Below, one piece after another: positions 1,885 through 33,523 of a stretch of 38,003 bases of DNA. Below the pieces are notes generated by a model. It saw only the letters and a list, made by a program, of their open reading frames with translations. It had not been told where the DNA came from and did no database searches. The translations under genes and the position numbers were made by a program. The stretch's first letter is position 1. Each line of letters starts with the position of its first letter. Source of the stretch: Mycobacteriales bacterium (GTDB lineage: Bacteria; Actinomycetota; Actinomycetes; Mycobacteriales; QHCD01); the NCBI GenBank assembly GCA_036497565.1, contig DASXJE010000053.1, forward strand, positions 1 through 38,003, read 5' to 3'.

Positions 1885-3809
1885 GGCGGGCAGCTGCTCC
1901 GGGCAAGGGTGGCGCTGCCGGCGAACCTGGCCTGGTAGCTGACGGATACCCCGGGATGCGTCGTGACGTGGGTGAGCCCGCCGCTTCCGGTCCGAACCGT
2001 TGCCCGCGGCGCCCAGGTGCGCCCGTTGACGGACTGCCACAGCTGCACGGGGACGTTGACGATGCCCGCCCCGGACGTGGCGGCGACGAGACGTATTCCC
2101 ACGACCACCGGCCGTCCCGCGACCACGGTCGCGTGGTCGACGCTGAGCCGGATCGCCGTCTTCGCCATCATGCCGACGGCGGGCGACGGAGAGACCGATG
2201 CGCCCCAAGGCGCTGCCCGGGTGAAGCGCACCTGGTACCGGGTGTCCGCGCTCTGCCGCACCGTCCATTGCACCAGCCCGGTCGCGTCGGCCGTCACCGT
2301 CGACACCTCGCGGTACGGCTGGTTCGCGATATGGCTCCACAGCGAAAGCCGGCCATGGGCGACGACCGTGCCCTGGTAGCCCTGCACGACCCGGCCGCTC
2401 ACGGTCAGCGGTTGTCCCGGCGTGACCCCCGGCGTGGAGAGACTGATCCGCGTGGTGGTCGGAGCAGGCCCTGTGGTGAGCGCCCGGATCTGGGTCAGGA
2501 AATTGCCCTTCCAGTGGTCGTACCGGCCCGACATCCACAGGGCCTGGACGTCGCCGGGCGGTCCCCACGGGACGATCGGTCGGACGTTCTTCACCGGGGA
2601 GTCGGGGGTGAGGTCGACCGGCGCATCGAAATGCACGCCGCCGTCGGGGGTGTGCCAGCGCTGAATCCGCCACGCCTTCCCGGCCTCCCGGGACGTGTAG
2701 AGGGTGGACGGATCGTTCGGATCGAGGGTCAGGCCGCCGGAGTAGTCGGGCTCGCTGCCGGTCGACACGATCGATCCGCCGGCGGCGACGAATTCATTGT
2801 CCGTCCAGGCGGAACCCGTCCACCGGGTGTAGTGGTAGCGGTGGTCCGTGTCGGCGGGGGCCGAGCGCGGGAACGACGCGAACGCGATCACCGGGTGCCC
2901 GTCCTGACCGAAGGCGACACTGTGCACCCACGCCTTCCCGCCCGTCCCGGCCCCGTCGTAGGCCTTGGCGAGGCTCTTGGTGTGCACCGGTGCGGCCGGC
3001 AACGGGTTGCCCGGCTGCCGTGGACCGAGGGTCGCCAACGACCTCCCGTCGACGCTGTGCAGAACGCCGCCGCGGTAGATCAGCGCGTAGATCGAATTGG
3101 TCTTGACGTCCCGCGGGTGCCCGTCGGTGAAGGCGATGAGGATGCTGTCCGTGCCGTTGGTCGCGTACTTCGCATAGGGCCGGGCGAAGGATCCGGCGCC
3201 ATCGGGTACGGCGATGTCCTGCGCGTCCGACCAGTGCGCGAGGTTGGCATCGCTGCTCCACATCACGGCAGGACGGTTGTCCCCGGACCGGAAAAACAGA
3301 TACGTCCGGTGCTCTGCGGGGAGATATATGGGGTTGGCATAGGTGAATCCCTTACCCCCAGGGCTGTTTCTGCCGTCCACCGTCTTCTCCGGTCCGAAGG
3401 TGCTGATGTCCTCCGGGTGGACCGAGATCCGGTAGTACATCTGTGCGCCGCCGTGCTTGGAGTAGAAGACGGCGATCCGGCCGTCGGGCAGCACCTCGAG
3501 GCCGGGCGCGGCATGGTCGTCCGCCTGGAACTTCGGGTGCAACGTGGTGTGGGTGAGCGCCGCGGTGCCGTTGTCGAGGCTGACGACGTCGATGTCGCCG
3601 GTGGAGGTCACGTAGCCGACGTAAGTCCGGTCATGGGCGCCGACATAGTGGATGGCCCGGGGGTCCTGGAACCAGCACCACGCACCATCGGCGACCAACT
3701 CGCCATTCCGCGGAGCGGGGGCCGCGGCCGACGCCGTACTCGGTTGGACGGCGACGAGGGCGAGGAGTGCGAGGGCAGCACCGATCGCGCGGAGCCGTCC
3801 GACGGCCAC
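1857..3809 (-). CDS. Secreted BNR-repeat protein with C-terminal Ig-like domains (copy 1)
   Basis: A 650-residue exported protein starting at a GTG (3809), with GGGGG upstream. Residues 1-28 form a signal peptide: RLR, a hydrophobic core, then ASA before AAP. The first ~440 residues resemble the BNR-4 (BNR repeat-containing) beta-propeller family: GAWCWFQDPRA near residue 42, YVGYVTSTGDIDVVS, MYYRISVHPEDISTF, YLFFRSGDNRPAVMWSS and DYSGGLTLDPNDPS. Two Ig-like modules follow, one from about 445 to 540 (beginning TTTRISLSTPGVTPGQPLTV) and one from about 545 to 650. BNR-type propellers are often polysaccharide lyases or glycan-binding proteins; the substrate here is unknown. This is the complete copy of a duplicated pair (second copy at 4004-5740). 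Confidence 0.85.
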   Translation of the reverse strand: MAVGRLRAIGAALALLALVAVQPSTASAAAPAPRNGELVADGAWCWFQDPRAIHYVGAHDRTYVGYVTSTGDIDVVSLDNGTAALTHTTLHPKFQADDHAAPGLEVLPDGRIAVFYSKHGGAQMYYRISVHPEDISTFGPEKTVDGRNSPGGKGFTYANPIYLPAEHRTYLFFRSGDNRPAVMWSSDANLAHWSDAQDIAVPDGAGSFARPYAKYATNGTDSILIAFTDGHPRDVKTNSIYALIYRGGVLHSVDGRSLATLGPRQPGNPLPAAPVHTKSLAKAYDGAGTGGKAWVHSVAFGQDGHPVIAFASFPRSAPADTDHRYHYTRWTGSAWTDNEFVAAGGSIVSTGSEPDYSGGLTLDPNDPSTLYTSREAGKAWRIQRWHTPDGGVHFDAPVDLTPDSPVKNVRPIVPWGPPGDVQALWMSGRYDHWKGNFLTQIRALTTGPAPTTTRISLSTPGVTPGQPLTVSGRVVQGYQGTVVAHGRLSLWSHIANQPYREVSTVTADATGLVQWTVRQSADTRYQVRFTRAAPWGASVSPSPAVGMMAKTAIRLSVDHATVVAGRPVVVGIRLVAATSGAGIVNVPVQLWQSVNGRTWAPRATVRTGSGGLTHVTTHPGVSVSYQARFAGSATLARSSCPPHRVGVVAA

Positions 3810-4031: not shown

Positions 4032-5740
4032 CTGCCAGAGTTGTACGGGGATGCCGACGATGCCCGCCCGGAGGTGGCGGCCACGGTGCGAATGCCGACG
4101 ACGGCCGGCGACGGGGACACCGAGGCGCCCCACGGCGCGGCCCCTGCGAAGCGCACCTGATACCGGGTGTCCGCGCTCTGCCGCACGGTCCAGTGCGCCA
4201 GCCCGCCCGCGTCCGCCGTCACCGTCGACACCTCGTGGTAGGGCTGGTTCACGATATGGCTCCACAGCGACAGCCGTCCGTGGGCGACGTTCGAGCCCTC
4301 GAAGCCCTGCACCACCCGGGCGCTGACGGTCAGCGGTTGTCCTGGCCCGGCGGCCGGCGCGGAGAGACTGATCCGCGTGGTGGTCGGCTCCGGACCACTG
4401 GTGAGCGCCCGGATGTGGGTCAGGAAATCGCCCTTCCAGTGGTCGTACCGGCCGGACATCCAGAGGGCGTGGACGTCGCCGGGCGGCCCCGACGGAATGA
4501 CCGGTCGGATGTTCTTCAGCGGGGAATTGGGGGTGAGGTCGACGGGGGTATCGAAATGCAAGCCGCCGTCGGGGGTGTGCCAGCGCTGGATCCGCCACGC
4601 GCTCCCGGCCTTCCGCGAGGTGTAGAGGGCGGACGGATCGTTCGGGTCGAGAGTGAGGCCGCCGGAGTAGTCCGGCTCGCTGCCGGTGGACACGATCGAT
4701 CCTCCGGCGGCGGCGAACTCGTTGTCGGTCCAGGCGGAACCCGTCCACCGGGCGTAGTGGTAGCGGTGGTCCGTGTCGGCTGGGGCCGAGGATCGCGGGA
4801 AGGACGCGAACGCGATCACCGGGTGCCCGTCCTGACCGAAGGCGACGCTGTGGACCCACGCCTTCCCGCCCGCGTCCGCCCCGTTGTAGGCCTTCGCGAG
4901 GCCCTTGATGTGCACCGGTGCGGCGTGCAACGGGCTGCCCGGCCGCCGTGGACCGACGGTCGCCAGCGACTTCCCGTCGACGCTGTGCAGGACGCCGCCG
5001 CGGTAGACGAGCGCATAGATCGAATTGGTTTTGGCGTCCCGAGGGTGTCCGTCGGTGAAGGCGATGAGGATGCTGTCGTTGCCGTTCGTCGCGTACTTCG
5101 CATAGGGCCGGGCGAAGGATCCGGCGCCGCCTTCGGGTGCGGCGATGTCCTGCGCGTCCGACCAGTGCGCAAGGTTGGTATCGCTGCTCCACATCACGGC
5201 AGGACGGTTGTCCCCGGACCGGAAGAACAGATAGGTCCGGTGTTCTGCGGGCAGGTAGATGGGGTTGGCATACGTGAATCCCTTGTCCCCAGGGCTGTTT
5301 CGCCCGTCCACGGTCTTCTCCGGACCGAACGTGCTGATGTCCTCCGGGTGGACCGAGATCCGGTAGTACATGTGTTCGCCGCCGTGCTGGGAGTAGAAGA
5401 CCGCGATCCGGCCGCCGGGCAGCACCTCGAGGCCGGGCGCCGCATGGTCATCCGCCTGGAACCTCGGGTGCAACGTGGCGTGGGTGAGTACCGCCGTGCC
5501 GCTGTCGATGCTGACGACGTCGATGTCTCCGGTGGACGTCACATAGCCGACGTAGGTCCGGTCGTGGGCGCCGACATAGTGGACGGCACGGGGGTCCTGG
5601 ATCCAGCACCACGCACCGTCGGCGACCACCTCGCCGTCGCGCTGGGTCGGGGCGATCGCCGAAGCCGTACCCGGTTGGACCGCGACCGGGGCAAGAATCG
5701 CCAGCGCAGCAATCACCATGCGAAGTCGTCCGACAGTCAT
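4004..5740 (-). CDS. Secreted BNR-repeat protein, C-terminally truncated (copy 2)
   Basis: A 578-residue paralogue of the 1857-3809 protein. The ATG at 5740 aligns with the copy 1 start and begins MTVGRLRMVIAALAIL; the signal peptide again ends ASA near residue 28. The propeller region and first Ig-like domain are intact, with GAWCWIQDPRA, MYYRISVHPEDISTF and DYSGGLTLDPNDPS. The second Ig-like domain is destroyed. About 69 bp are deleted in frame after SPSPAV, then one base is missing (CCCGCCCGG where copy 1 has CCCGCCCCGG). The frame therefore shifts after VAATSG and ends 20 residues later in GRAHRRVGRR, inside natA-derived sequence. The conserved body suggests the protein is still made and exported. 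Whether the altered tail matters is unknown. Confidence 0.8.
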   Translation of the reverse strand: MTVGRLRMVIAALAILAPVAVQPGTASAIAPTQRDGEVVADGAWCWIQDPRAVHYVGAHDRTYVGYVTSTGDIDVVSIDSGTAVLTHATLHPRFQADDHAAPGLEVLPGGRIAVFYSQHGGEHMYYRISVHPEDISTFGPEKTVDGRNSPGDKGFTYANPIYLPAEHRTYLFFRSGDNRPAVMWSSDTNLAHWSDAQDIAAPEGGAGSFARPYAKYATNGNDSILIAFTDGHPRDAKTNSIYALVYRGGVLHSVDGKSLATVGPRRPGSPLHAAPVHIKGLAKAYNGADAGGKAWVHSVAFGQDGHPVIAFASFPRSSAPADTDHRYHYARWTGSAWTDNEFAAAGGSIVSTGSEPDYSGGLTLDPNDPSALYTSRKAGSAWRIQRWHTPDGGLHFDTPVDLTPNSPLKNIRPVIPSGPPGDVHALWMSGRYDHWKGDFLTHIRALTSGPEPTTTRISLSAPAAGPGQPLTVSARVVQGFEGSNVAHGRLSLWSHIVNQPYHEVSTVTADAGGLAHWTVRQSADTRYQVRFAGAAPWGASVSPSPAVVGIRTVAATSGRASSASPYNSGRAHRRVGRR

Positions 5741-8841: not shown

Positions 8842-9531
8842 TCAGGACGACGACGCTCCCTGCGGCGCGGTGACGTCCAGGGTCGGCTCGGTGTTGCGGG
8901 CCGGTCCGGTCAGAACGCGGCAGTCTTCGATGCTTGCGGCCAGCAGGTCGTGCAGGTACGGGTCGGGCTCGGGCACCGAGGCGGCGATGCTGTACACCGC
9001 GTAGCGCACGGTGCTCGGGGCGGCGTGCCGGCGGAACGCGCGTTTGGACGGGCCGGTGCTCATGCTGTGCCGCACGGCCCAGCGGGCGGCGTGCGGAACC
9101 GCGGCGAGCATCTCCCGGCTCCGCTGCTGACTCCACGCGGCCGGATGCCCGTCGAGGTCGCCCAGGACGCGATTGCCACACAGGACGGCGACCGCCAGCA
9201 CCTGCTGACGCTCGGCGGAGACGATCGGCAGTGCCGTGTTGGCCGCCCGGAGCGCGAGGGCGATGTCGACGTGCAGGTCGTCACTGACGAGCCCGATCAC
9301 ACCGGGGATCAGGTCGGCGAGCGGCTGCCGACCGGCGTCGGTGCTGTTGTCGTTCACGTGCCGGGCGAGGGCGGCGAGCAGCGGATGGGTGCAGTCCGGA
9401 TGGTCGCTCCACCGTTCGCCGGCCAGGTAGGACGCCAGCTCCATGAAGCACGCCCCCTTGCGTGGGCTGCGGTGCTTGCCCCGCGAGAGCATCGGGACGA
9501 GTTCAGGTATCAGCACGCTGTCGCTTTTCAT
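8842..9531 (-). CDS. Conserved hypothetical protein, no recognised domain
   Basis: A 229-residue soluble protein of unknown function. The ATG at 9531 has GGGGAG five bases upstream; a GTG one codon earlier (9534) is an alternative. The N-terminus has the motifs LVPMLSRGKHRSPRKGACFM and ELASYLAGERWSDHP followed by CTHPLLAALARHVND. These read like a conserved actinobacterial family I have seen only as hypothetical. The rest is Ala/Leu-rich and helical (LADLIPGVIGLVSDDLHVDI, HAARWAVRHSM). There is no signal peptide or membrane helix. It is followed after one base by the alpha/beta hydrolase, so a joint role is plausible but not shown. Confidence 0.75.
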   Translation of the reverse strand: MKSDSVLIPELVPMLSRGKHRSPRKGACFMELASYLAGERWSDHPDCTHPLLAALARHVNDNSTDAGRQPLADLIPGVIGLVSDDLHVDIALALRAANTALPIVSAERQQVLAVAVLCGNRVLGDLDGHPAAWSQQRSREMLAAVPHAARWAVRHSMSTGPSKRAFRRHAAPSTVRYAVYSIAASVPEPDPYLHDLLAASIEDCRVLTGPARNTEPTLDVTAPQGASSS

Positions 9532-9596
9532 CACGTCTCCCCGTGTACGGCGCTCCTGTGGTTAGTGTGCGCCCCGAATGAGCCCCGCGGTCGAAG

Positions 9597-9631
9597 TTGG
9601 CCGCCTCCGGGCGGTCGCCTAGGCTCTGAGC
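9597..9631 (+). promoter_or_regulatory. Strong leaderless promoter for larE
   Basis: TTGGCC (9597-9602), a 17-base spacer, TAGGCT (9620-9625), then exactly six bases to the GTG start at 9632. Both hexamers and the spacing fit the actinobacterial housekeeping sigma factor. The -10 to start distance predicts transcription beginning at or next to the start codon. No Shine-Dalgarno sequence is present, consistent with a leaderless mRNA. Confidence 0.65.
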
Positions 9632-10480
9632 GTGTCCTCCGACCCGCTTCTCGACGCCCGACTGGCCGATCTCGATGCGCAGCTGCGCGGTCTGGGCAGC
9701 GTGCTCGTCGCCTTCTCCGGCGGCACGGACTCGGCGTTCGTCCTCGCCGCCGCGGCGCGGGCGCTCGGTGCCGACCGGGTGGTCGCGGGTACGGCGGTGT
9801 CGGCGAGCCTCGCCGCCGGTGAGCTCGACGACGCGCGGGCCTTCGCGGCCGGGCTCGGCGTACCGCACGAGGTGGTGCACACCGAGGAAATGGCCCAGGA
9901 CGGCTACCGGGCCAATGCCGGGGACCGGTGCTACTTCTGCAAGGCCGAGTTGCTCGACGTACTCGGCCCGCTCGCCGAGCGGCTCGACGTCGCCGCGGTC
10001 GCGACCGGCACCAACGCCGACGACGCGGTGGCCGGGTTCCGTCCCGGGATCCGGGCCGCGGCCGAGCGCGGTGCGGTCACCCCGCTGCGCGACGCCGGAC
10101 TGACCAAGGCGCAGGTGCGCGCGGCGTCGCGGGAGTGGGGACTGGTCACCTGGGACAAGCCGGCGGCCGCGTGCCTGTCCAGCCGGATCGCCTTCGGGGT
10201 GAGCATCACCCCGAGCCGGCTCGCGCGCGTGGACCGGGCCGAGTCGGCGCTCCGCGACGCGCTCACCGCGGCCGGGTACGACGTCGGCAACCTGCGGGTG
10301 CGTGACCTCGGCGACGACGGTGCCCGCGTCGAGGTCGACCGCGACCTGGTCGACGTACTCGCCGCGCGTTCGGACCTGCTCGCCGTCGTGGACGGCTTTC
10401 CGTCGGTGTCCGTCGACCCGCGCGGCTTCCGCTCCGGCTCGATGAACGAGCTTCTCCCCGAACCGGCCCGCTACCGCTGA
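9632..10480 (+). CDS. larE: LarE-type ATP-dependent sulfur transferase
   Basis: A 282-residue PP-loop enzyme. LarE adenylates the carboxylates of a nicotinic-acid-derived intermediate and transfers sulfur during synthesis of the nickel-pincer cofactor of lactate racemase and its relatives. The PP-loop is SGGTDS (29-34). Three conserved cysteines are C100 and C103 in DRCYFCKAE and C181 in KPAAACLSSR. C181 corresponds to the sacrificial cysteine of Lactiplantibacillus LarE; in other LarE proteins three cysteines hold an iron-sulfur cluster that carries the sulfur. No larB, larC or larA-like gene lies within the window. It starts at a GTG with no ribosome binding site but a well-formed promoter just upstream. 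The 63-bp double-palindrome element lies 33 bp after the stop. Confidence 0.9.
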   Translation: MSSDPLLDARLADLDAQLRGLGSVLVAFSGGTDSAFVLAAAARALGADRVVAGTAVSASLAAGELDDARAFAAGLGVPHEVVHTEEMAQDGYRANAGDRCYFCKAELLDVLGPLAERLDVAAVATGTNADDAVAGFRPGIRAAAERGAVTPLRDAGLTKAQVRAASREWGLVTWDKPAAACLSSRIAFGVSITPSRLARVDRAESALRDALTAAGYDVGNLRVRDLGDDGARVEVDRDLVDVLAARSDLLAVVDGFPSVSVDPRGFRSGSMNELLPEPARYR

Positions 10481-10512
10481 TCTCGGGGTCCCTGCCGGGG
10501 TTACGCGACCGA

Positions 10513-10575
10513 CCCATTCCGCTTGAACGTCACGTTCAAGCGCTCTATCCGCATCAACGTCACGTTGACGCGGAA
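10513..10575 (+). repeat. 63-bp double-palindrome element, copy A
   Basis: This element recurs at 33448-33510 with two differences in 63 bases. It begins CCCATTCCGC and ends GACGCGGAA. It contains two hairpins around the same core, AACGT-C-ACGTT. The first has perfect 11-base arms (CGCTTGAACGT and its complement); the second has 12-base arms with one mismatch (CCGCATCAACGT). The outer ends TTCCGC and GCGGAA are also complementary, so the whole element can fold as one cloverleaf-like palindrome. It lies between convergent larE and the DUF3352 gene. There is no open reading frame and no flanking target duplication that I can see. Confidence 0.85.
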
Positions 10576-10588
10576 TAGCTGCCGGCGG

Positions 10589-12043
10589 TCAGCCGACGAC
10601 GAGGCGCACCCGCAGGGTCGCCGTACTCCCGTCGACGGAGGCCGACAGCCCGAACGCCTTCAGCGCCTTTTCGTCGGGTGTGGCGTTGCCCTGCTTCGCG
10701 AGGACCCGGTCGAGGTCGACGTAGACCACAGCGGCAGCCTTTCCGGCGTCCGGTACGGCGGTCCGGAACTGGCTCTGCGCGCCGAGTGAGCCACGGTGCT
10801 GCAGCGACGTCGCGTACTGATCGGAGCTGGCGATCACCAGACCGTGCGCGCTCTGCCGCACGATCAGCCCGCCACCGGCGATGGCGTTGTTGAGCTTGGC
10901 TGCCGCGGCGGCCGCGCGGGCGGGATCCGTCGTGCTGGTGAGCAGGCCGATGGAGGTCAGATCCGGGCCGCCGAGCGCGAAGATCGTCTTGGAACCGACC
11001 AGCGCCATGAGGTCGCCGGGCAGGGTCAGCCCGCTCTTCTCCTGGAACGAGGTGAGCGGACCGAGTGCCCGGGCACCGAGTCCGCGGCCGATCGCCGAGT
11101 ACAGCGACCGGATGTCGGAGTCGAGATGGCCGGCACCGATCGCGACGGCGGTGTCCTGGGGCAACCGGGCGACGTCGGCGCCGACATTGCCGCCCTGTAC
11201 GCCGGAAACCCCGAAGGCCTTGACCTGTACGTCGGCCACCGAAGTGTCGAAGCGAACCGACAGCGCGAGCCGCGAGGGCAGCTTGGCCGTCTGCGCCTGT
11301 CCCGTGGCCGCGCCGTTGGCCTCGGCGAATTTCAGCGCGCCGTGTACGTCGACCCAGGCCGTCGCAATCGCGCCGCCCGGGAGCGCCGAGACGTCGGAGT
11401 TGTAGGACCCGGTGCCGCCGAGCGCACTCTGCTTCGCGTCGGTCGCGGCCCGCTGGGCCGCCGCGGGGGAGTCGCTGATGATCGCGTAGCCATCCGTCAC
11501 GACGTACCCGAAGCGGCTCTGCGTGCTGGCCAGCCGGGCGAGGTCGGTCTTCGCGGTGCCGTCGTCGGTGGTCTGGATCGCGGCGATCGCGTGGATCTTG
11601 CCGTTCTGCGGATCGGCGGCGATCGCCAGGTGGTCCCCGATCCAGGGCTTGACGTCGCGGTCGAAGTTGACGCCGCCCGGCGAATTCTGGAACACCGGCT
11701 TCAGCAGGCCGTCGCCGAGATTCAGGCCCGAGCTGTTCGCGGCGATGGAGGGGAAGTTACGCAGGAACTTCAGGGCCGCGAGGGTCTCGCCGCCGCCCGG
11801 ATCGAGGTTGATCGACGCCACCGCCAGCGTGTCCGCGGGCAGGTGCCGCGCCGCCTCGTCGGTGCCCGAACTGACGCTCGCGACGACGGCGTACGCGCCG
11901 CCGGCGACTGCCAGAGCCGCGACGACCGCCACCCCGGTGATGATCATGCCGCGGCGCCGTGGCCGCGGAGGTGGCACGGGAGCGGTCAGGTGATCAGGCC
12001 CCGGCGGCTCAGGGCCGCCGTCCGGCGGCCGCTGATCGCTCAT
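10589..12043 (-). CDS. DUF3352-type membrane-anchored protein
   Basis: A 484-residue protein from the ATG at 12043 (MSDQRPPDGGPEPPG). A proline-rich cytosolic N-terminus with PRPRRRG is followed by one transmembrane helix (about 33-55, MIITGVAVVAALAVAGGAYA) and a large extracytoplasmic domain. That domain matches the DUF3352 pattern: HLPADTLAVASINLDPGGG, DVKPWIGDHLAIA, DGYAIISDSPAAA and DLMALVGSKTIFALGGPDL. The family is widespread in actinobacteria and has no established function. An in-frame ATG ten codons upstream (12073) is less likely because the G/T-rich leader would then be coding. A -10-like TAGGCT on the minus strand (12109-12104) could serve it. Confidence 0.85.
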   Translation of the reverse strand: MSDQRPPDGGPEPPGPDHLTAPVPPPRPRRRGMIITGVAVVAALAVAGGAYAVVASVSSGTDEAARHLPADTLAVASINLDPGGGETLAALKFLRNFPSIAANSSGLNLGDGLLKPVFQNSPGGVNFDRDVKPWIGDHLAIAADPQNGKIHAIAAIQTTDDGTAKTDLARLASTQSRFGYVVTDGYAIISDSPAAAQRAATDAKQSALGGTGSYNSDVSALPGGAIATAWVDVHGALKFAEANGAATGQAQTAKLPSRLALSVRFDTSVADVQVKAFGVSGVQGGNVGADVARLPQDTAVAIGAGHLDSDIRSLYSAIGRGLGARALGPLTSFQEKSGLTLPGDLMALVGSKTIFALGGPDLTSIGLLTSTTDPARAAAAAAKLNNAIAGGGLIVRQSAHGLVIASSDQYATSLQHRGSLGAQSQFRTAVPDAGKAAAVVYVDLDRVLAKQGNATPDEKALKAFGLSASVDGSTATLRVRLVVG

Positions 12044-31823: not shown

Positions 31824-33461
31824 GTGTCCGCATCCCTGCGAGCCCACCAGCTCACCGTCTCGCAGGGGGCGGTCGTCGTCCTCGACCGGATCGACCTCGG
31901 GGTCGCCGCCGGCGACCGGGTCGGTGTCGTGGGCCCCAACGGCGTCGGCAAGACGACGCTGTTGCGTGCGCTGTCCGGCGAGATCACCCCCGAGCACGGC
32001 CGGGTGACCCTCCACCCCACTACGGCGACGATCGTGCGGGTCCCGCAGGAGTCCGCGGCCAAGCCCGGCGAGACGCTTGCCGACTACCTCGCGCGGTGCA
32101 CGGGCGTCGCCGCGGCGGACCGTCGGCTGACTGCGGCCACCGAGGCACTCGGCGCGCAGCGGCCCGGGTCGGACACCGAATACGCCGACGCGCTGGAGGC
32201 CTGGCTCGCGCTCGGCGGCGCCGACCTTCCCGAACGCGCCGCGGCGGTGTCGGAACAGCTCGGGTTGGCGGCCGGCCTGGTCGACCGCGGGGCTGGGCAG
32301 CTCTCCGGCGGCCAGTCCGCCCGGCTGCGATTGGCGACCGCGCTGCTGGTGCGGGCCGACGTACTCCTCCTCGACGAGCCGACCAACGATCTCGACGACT
32401 CGGGCCTGCAGGCATTGGAGTCGATGGTCGCCGGCTTCGGCGGCGGCATCGTGCTCGTGTCCCACGACCGCGAGTTCTGTGCCCGCACCGTCGAACGGGT
32501 GCTGGAGATCGACGAGTTCACCCACCAGGCCCGCGAGTACGCCGGTGGCTGGCAGGCCTACCTCGACGAACGCGCCGCCGCCCGGGCCCGCGCGGAGGAG
32601 GAGTACGAGACCTACGCCTCGACCCGCGACGACCTCGTCGCCCGGGCCCGGCGGCAGCGGGAGTGGGCCCGCACCGGCGCCAAGACGGCGGCCAACCCGC
32701 GCCGCGAGCCGGACAAGCACATCCGCTTCCGCGAGGTGCAGCGTGCGCAGCGCACCGGCGCGAAGGCCGCCATGAGCGAACGGGCCCTCGACCGCCTCGA
32801 GGTCGTGGAGGAGCCGCGCGATCCGTGGGAGCTGCGCCTGACGATCACGTCGGCCGGCCGGGGCAGCGAGGTCGCGTTCGCGCTGCGGGAGGCCGTCATC
32901 GAACGGGGCGACGTGCGGCTCGGGCCGGTCGACCTGGTCATCGGCGCGGGGGAGCGGCTGCGGATCACCGGGCCCAACGGCAGCGGCAAATCCACGCTGG
33001 TCGAGGCACTGCTCGGCCGGCTTCCGCTGGTGTCCGGCACGTCGTACGTCGGTCCGGGGGTCGTCATCGGCGAGATGGATCAGACCCGCCTCTCGTTGCG
33101 CGGGCCCGATCCGCTGCTCGACGTGTTCCGCGGCCTCACCGCCCTGTCGCCGGTCGACGCGCGAACGCTGCTCGCGAAGTTCCGGCTCGGCGCCGAAGCC
33201 GTGCTGCGCCCGGTCGATTCCCTGTCGCCGGGGGAGCGGACCCGGGCCGGGCTCGCCGTCTTTCAGGCCCGCGGTTCGACCTGCGTGGTCCTCGACGAGC
33301 CGACCAATCACCTTGACCTACCGGCGATCGAACAGCTGGAGAGCGCCCTCGAACCGTACGACGGCACCGTGCTGCTGATCACCCACGACCGCCAGCTCGC
33401 CGAGCACGTACCGGTCGACCGCGAGCTCGACGTGCGTACGCTGTCGCCCCATTCCGCTTGA
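31824..33461 (+). CDS. ABC-F family ATPase
   Basis: A 545-residue soluble protein with two ABC cassettes and no membrane helices. Cassette 1 has Walker A GPNGVGKT (37-44), signature LSGGQSARLRLA and Walker B LLLDEPTNDLD. Cassette 2 has GPNGSGKS, LSPGERTRAGLAV and VVLDEPTNHLD. Between them lies a charged linker (AAARARAEEEYETYAST, ARRQREWARTGAKTA), the ribosome-contacting P-site motif region of ABC-F factors. Such proteins act on stalled or antibiotic-bound ribosomes; a resistance role is possible but not shown. The GTG start (31824) has GGGAGAG upstream. The last three codons and the TGA are made from the 63-bp repeat element, so the C-terminus may have been altered by its insertion. Confidence 0.93.
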   Translation: MSASLRAHQLTVSQGAVVVLDRIDLGVAAGDRVGVVGPNGVGKTTLLRALSGEITPEHGRVTLHPTTATIVRVPQESAAKPGETLADYLARCTGVAAADRRLTAATEALGAQRPGSDTEYADALEAWLALGGADLPERAAAVSEQLGLAAGLVDRGAGQLSGGQSARLRLATALLVRADVLLLDEPTNDLDDSGLQALESMVAGFGGGIVLVSHDREFCARTVERVLEIDEFTHQAREYAGGWQAYLDERAAARARAEEEYETYASTRDDLVARARRQREWARTGAKTAANPRREPDKHIRFREVQRAQRTGAKAAMSERALDRLEVVEEPRDPWELRLTITSAGRGSEVAFALREAVIERGDVRLGPVDLVIGAGERLRITGPNGSGKSTLVEALLGRLPLVSGTSYVGPGVVIGEMDQTRLSLRGPDPLLDVFRGLTALSPVDARTLLAKFRLGAEAVLRPVDSLSPGERTRAGLAVFQARGSTCVVLDEPTNHLDLPAIEQLESALEPYDGTVLLITHDRQLAEHVPVDRELDVRTLSPHSA

Positions 33462-33510
33462 ACGTCACGTTCAAGCGCTCTAGCCGCATGAACGTCACGT
33501 TGACGCGGAA
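33448..33510 (+). repeat. 63-bp double-palindrome element, copy B
   Basis: Same orientation and 61 of 63 bases identical to 10513-10575; the differences are at 33483 (G for T) and 33490 (G for C). The second difference replaces the C of the second hairpin's left arm with G. The first hairpin, with perfect 11-base arms, is unchanged. The element supplies the ABC-F stop codon (33459-33461) and ends 13 bp before the TrmH gene. It could act as a 3' stem-loop or processing site between the two genes. Confidence 0.85.
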
Positions 33511-33523
33511 ACGGGGGGCGTGA

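Follow-up and report, generated by a model that had tools for sequence, protein, structure and literature searches.

Untagged, REPIN-like double-hairpin repeats located behind stop codons in the genome of a Mycobacteriales bacterium

Does a short palindromic sequence that occurs twice in one contig of a Mycobacteriales bacterium belong to a dispersed repeat family, or is it an ordinary structure at the 3' ends of two genes? The question is raised by two 63-bp segments (positions 10513–10575 and 33448–33510) of the window, i.e. the whole 38,003-nt stretch of DNA analysed here. An initial annotation described them as nearly identical copies on the same strand, each containing two hairpins around AACGT-C-ACGTT, and this description was confirmed: the segments are identical at 61 of 63 positions, differing at 2, and AACGTCACGTT is present twice in each. 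Sites matching AACGTSACGTT with at most one mismatch number four in the window, all within the two elements, versus 0.29 expected, and none of 100 shuffled sequences reached four. The conserved core was redefined as a 61-bp unit (ATTCCGC...GCGGAAT; 10516–10576 and 33451–33511), and the hairpins of the window copies have stems of 11–12 bp and loops of a single base. Both copies fold with far lower energy than shuffled sequences (z = -3.9 to -5.6). The two copies and their neighbouring genes are as follows.

9632–10480, + strand: gene for a LarE-like ATP-dependent sacrificial sulfur transferase (TIGR00268, 1.8e-80)
10516–10576, + strand: double-hairpin element, copy 1, identical to the family consensus except for T instead of G at position 33
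10520–10542, + strand: hairpin 1 of copy 1, CGCTTGAACGT-C-ACGTTCAAGCG, with an 11-bp stem and a 1-nt loop
10544–10548, + strand: spacer joining the two hairpins of copy 1, TCTAT (TCTAG in the family consensus)
10549–10573, + strand: hairpin 2 of copy 1, CCGCATCAACGT-C-ACGTTGACGCGG, with 12 stem positions including one A.C mismatch, which is G.U when the opposite strand is read
10589–11947, - strand: gene for a DUF3352-containing protein, convergent, ending 12 bp beyond copy 1
31824–33461, + strand: gene for an ABC-F family ATPase, the end of which lies within copy 2
33451–33511, + strand: double-hairpin element, copy 2, whose TGA at 33459–33461 is the ABC-F stop codon
33524–34333, + strand: gene for a SpoU/RlmB-like RNA methyltransferase, starting 12 bp 3' of copy 2

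The initial annotation placed both copies right after a gene. This is correct for copy 1, located 35 bp 3' of the LarE-like gene, and not for copy 2, since the ABC-F ORF terminates inside the element and uses its TGA as the stop codon. Elsewhere in the window, positions 2174–3493 and 4099–5424 form a long direct repeat (86–92% identity across 300-nt stretches, with a spacing of ~1.93 kb), which probably represents two neighbouring paralogous genes.

A search of the source genome (4.8 Mb in 316 contigs, 97.8% complete) found the repeat, essentially at full length, 44 times, spread over 28 contigs, with most copies 87–100% identical to the query. A covariance model built from 42 of the 44 copies retrieved the same 44 full-length units and otherwise only marginal hits, none above noise. 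The consensus is ATTCCGCTTGAACGTCACGTTCAAGCGCTCTAGCCGCATCAACGTCACGTTGACGCGGAAT, preceded by CC and followed by GG in most copies; the first flanking base is C before the unit in 35 and G after it in 33 of the 42 copies. Among the 42 ungapped copies, more than half differ from the consensus at 0–3 positions and the most divergent at 12, and the mean pairwise identity is 90%. Terminal inverted repeats are present in nearly all copies, either as ATTCCGC/GCGGAAT or as a CGGC/GCCG variant; in a subfamily of six copies, CGGC/GCCG replaces CCGC/GCGG at stem bases. The AACGTSACGTT dyad is invariant at most positions in the 42 copies and always occurs twice, with a centre spacing of 30 bp, and single dyads outside the unit are rare. 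Where copies are clustered, they are arranged in tandem on the same strand. Besides the 44 pairs, two single-hairpin remnants lying beside pairs and one rearranged hybrid were found, the latter close to a contig end (L095:7739-7810 and L095:7820-7900) and preceded by two copies of another hairpin, CCCACTAGTAGTGGGTTTTG, that resembles a U-tailed terminator. A GGCGTACG box 3' of the copies was rejected as a general part of the unit, being present within 60 bp of only 6 of the 44 copies; its presence there suggests that the unit copied may have been longer at some loci.

Significant matches were absent from 60 relatives (one member of the same family, from a sister genus, and 59 members of the order), and likewise from ~394 genomes of the class and from plasmids and phages. 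A degenerate form of the double-hairpin pattern had no match in viral contigs, and the window had none in Rfam. AACGTSACGTT occurs at 86 sites in the source genome versus 0–9 in each of the 60 relatives. A diagnostic 20-mer gave four single matches in ~85,000 species, and the one inspected (L032) was a chance match in coding sequence. The covariance model yielded two marginal matches (E ~1e-3) in 200 genomes of the order, G082 and G161, which were rejected as family members because the first is an array of another palindrome and the second two dyads arranged like an operator. A region of G082, which belongs to another family of the same order, contains many TTGAACGGWCCGTTCAA-type palindromes within 650 bp (L102:1530-2180). 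The initial annotation had proposed a dispersed, non-coding palindromic family, possibly undescribed in this lineage; these searches support such a family and its restriction to this lineage. Clearly, the repeat is neither confined to the two copies in the window nor located at fixed sites in all relatives. Its absence from every relative searched gives it the appearance of a small, recently copied family of the REP/REPIN type.

Comparison with ~1.4 Mb of G001, the sister genus and the sole other genome of the same family in the set, provided one element-free counterpart of an occupied site: the convergent htpX–rmlA junction carries a copy in the source genome and a spacer of ~24 bp without the element in G001. 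This junction lacks the element without being a base-exact empty site, the two genera being too distant for the latter. Downstream of ino1, a double hairpin is present in the source genome and a member of another hairpin family in G001.

The unit is a pair of inverted palindromes with 1-nt loops, separated by a TCTAG spacer, and two folds are possible, i.e. one long hairpin or two side-by-side hairpins. Of the pairs that discriminate between them, those of the two-hairpin fold are kept in 36 (8-24), 42 (10-22), and 36 (40-52, including seven C-G to G-C changes) of the 42 copies, whereas those of the long-hairpin fold are kept in 11 (10-52), 9 (22-40), and 2 (24-38). When all pairs are considered, 94% of cells pair in the two-hairpin fold versus 81% in the long-hairpin fold. 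The former shows 23 two-sided changes versus 7.0 in shuffles, counts that stand for few independent events because copies within one genome are related. At position 38-54, 26 of the 42 copies have A.C, which corresponds to a G.U pair on the opposite strand. Base-pair changes in the alignment thus support two adjacent hairpins as the probable structure, and a single long hairpin was rejected as the conserved fold, its discriminating pairs being broken in most copies.

The positions of the copies relative to genes were tabulated using a home-made gene caller trained on 426 kb of the source genome, on which all gap classes depend. Predicted genes contain none of the 44 copies. The copies occupy 33 distinct gene gaps: 15 between convergent genes, 15 between tandem genes, 2 between divergent genes, and 1 unclassified. 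Among element-free gaps, convergent ones make up 15% and divergent ones 20% by number, and by length the shares are 5% convergent, 52% tandem, and 43% divergent; among the 32 classified gaps, convergent ones are over-used and divergent ones avoided. A stop codon is found no more than 90 bp from a copy in 31 of the 33 occupied gaps, mostly within 50 bp, so that the location at gene 3' ends, proposed from the window, is supported across the genome. In four gaps, including that of window copy 2, the gene runs 11 or 17 bases into the element before it stops, owing to a TGA that one frame of the element ends contains (CGCTTGA or CGCGTGA, or a more internal site). Copies show no preferred orientation with respect to the nearer upstream gene (18 same and 13 opposite). 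The adjoining genes are diverse: the 62 neighbour proteins have no dominant shared family, and no transposase was seen among the 25 families listed for them. Insertion into pre-existing terminator palindromes was tried as an explanation and rejected, since flank pairing within the same copy averaged 22.7 versus 21.8 between copies, and 192 of 2000 permutations gave a value as high.

REPINs are REP doublets that form hairpins, and clusters and single-hairpin remnants have been reported beside the full units (Bertels and Rainey 2011, PMC3116915). The double hairpin resembles them in being an extragenic pair of inverted short palindromes with a short spacer, in which the doublet is the conserved unit and clusters and rare single remnants occur, and the same two alternative folds have been discussed for REPINs. 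It differs in its 1-nt loops, its actinobacterial host, and its copy number (44, not hundreds), and in the lack of a GTAG-type tag: no unpaired GTAG or CGTC tag was found at the palindrome ends, where the flanking columns are mostly CC/GG, nor at the centre, which is TCTAG. It also differs in that neither a RAYT nor any other Y1 transposase was detected, Pfam Y1_Tnp (PF01797; RAYT, IS200/IS605) having no match in the 97.8% complete source genome, whereas 5 of 14 control genomes were positive. The family is therefore not filed as REPIN, its anatomy being REPIN-like but the link to RAYT failing. REPs with GTAG or CGTC tags are mostly found 3' of coding regions, in gaps between ORFs that converge or run in the same direction, with dimers predominating, and CGTC REPs have no dedicated transposase (Di Nocera et al. 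2013, PMC3733652). The text of that paper, in which the word Actinobacteria is absent, also mentions REP-like repeats that carry no tag, among them those of M. tuberculosis. The double hairpin shares with tagged REPs the location downstream of genes in convergent and co-directional gaps and the mostly dimeric state, and with CGTC REPs the stems beginning with AT and the lack of a dedicated transposase, but it has no end tag, and its stems of 11–12 bp with 1-nt loops contrast with the 8–9 bp and 4–5 nt of CGTC REPs. The M. tuberculosis repeats, compared by description, are likewise palindromic, intergenic, untagged, and carried by a high-GC actinobacterial host. Enterobacterial BIMEs are similar in forming mosaics of differing palindromic units within an intergenic region, but double-hairpin clusters consist of same-strand tandem copies; the units are not known to be related in sequence to E. 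coli REP/PU. The family is best called new, untagged, and REP/REPIN-like.

What is observed is a set of abundant, lineage-confined pairs of inverted palindromes at gene ends. These probably represent a lineage-specific family of REPIN/BIME-like intergenic repeats that are copied within the genome and survive just behind stop codons, and the best reading is a non-autonomous repeat without RAYT that is tolerated at mRNA 3' ends, where it may also be used. Three observations lead us to infer that the unit has been copied to new places within the source genome: copies at unrelated loci are nearly identical, the relatives searched lack them, and a conserved junction is element-free in the sister genus. 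Copies would then survive almost only just past stop codons, sparing genes and promoters, either because insertions elsewhere are harmful or because the hairpins are useful there. Such strong hairpins could act on either transcript end, as a barrier to 3' exonucleases or to transcription that reads through from one convergent gene into the other.

A second family accompanies the double hairpin. A 61-nt long hairpin (CGACATCGTGCG...TACTCGC(N16)GCGAGTA...CGCACGATGTCG), with ~60 copies in the source genome, is often found between paired double-hairpin copies; it has a 22-bp stem, constant TACTCGC/GCGAGTA, and a variable loop. Five of the eight double-hairpin clusters contain one long hairpin enclosed by two double hairpins, which is the mosaic that recalls BIMEs. 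In arrays of long hairpins, two stem types, GTGC/GCAC and GGAC/GTCC, differing by two-sided changes, alternate in 21 of 22 neighbouring pairs. Distant relatives (E 6e-10 to 1e-6) occur in G001 and in G071, and one of those in G001 (L176) is the hairpin found 3' of ino1, where the source genome carries a double hairpin.

Long-hairpin loci, source genome: L072:5461-5521, L076:4956-5016, L066:688-748, L085:341-401
Long-hairpin loci, source genome (continued): L096:709-958, L158:190-449, L160:1499-1776, L174:1499-1726
Distant relatives, G001: L176:1501-1564, L193:1501-1565
Distant relative, G071 (another family of the order): L177:1501-1566

A broader proposal, which we hold only tentatively, is that REPIN-like mobile repeats may spread here without Y1/RAYT, through another mobiliser or through replication- or repair-based copying of hairpins, and that both families may belong to a wider lineage system of several hairpin families that colonise gene 3' ends and form heterotypic arrays (double–long–double, and long hairpins with alternating stems). 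A gene with atypical codon use lies next to ino1 between two inverted double-hairpin copies (L080:5256-6451, contig 150). Neither Pfam nor NCBIfam gave a match to its 328-aa product, so no mobiliser was identified there, and a composite transposon at this locus was rejected.

It is rather unlikely that the copies are instead functional 3'-end elements under selection, i.e. bidirectional terminators or mRNA-end stabilisers whose number rose through recombination and whose sequences were homogenised through gene conversion, without transposition. The strong bias towards 3' ends and convergent gaps and the stable hairpins with two-sided changes would fit such a role, as would the ino1 3' end, which bears differing hairpins in the two genera, as if one were useful there. 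Actinobacteria often lack U-tailed terminators. No U tract follows the hairpins, whose flanks are C/G-rich, and no terminator-like site was found around copy 1 (9500–11500), which counts against this explanation together with the absence of the repeat from all relatives searched. The lack of orientation bias also argues against a strand-specific RNA role, and a pure terminator would not require the sequence conservation seen in the loop-proximal AACGTSACGTT.

That same perfect dyad, nearly invariant and always paired at a fixed spacing, might suggest that the chromosome is dotted with binding sites of a sequence-specific DNA-binding protein, a factor of the nucleoid or of recombination; this is improbable, since near-identity spans all 61 bp, including the spacer and the outer ends, single dyads are rare, and the 3'-end bias is strong. 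A classical MITE, i.e. a non-autonomous DDE-type element with terminal inverted repeats (CC)ATTCCGC...GCGGAAT(GG), would account for the conserved inverted ends, the C-before/G-after flanks, the small size, and the dispersal, but is very improbable: no consistent target-site duplication was found, the bases beside the ends being mostly CC and GG and not direct repeats, a genome-wide covariance-model search revealed no longer or autonomous element with these ends, and two-sided changes keep the local hairpins and not the long inverted repeat. Of the REP/MITE-like character first suggested for the element, the MITE part is weakened by the lack of a transposase with matching ends, the lack of consistent duplications, and the less well kept long pairing.

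Read as a lineage-specific REPIN/BIME-like family, the double hairpin represents a clean, small, and apparently recent set of REP/REPIN-like repeats in a high-GC actinobacterial lineage in which no RAYT was detected. The family, like CGTC REPs, offers a test case for the origin and spread of RAYT-less REP-like repeats, and paired loci with and without a hairpin provide natural material on the function of 3'-end hairpins in actinobacteria.
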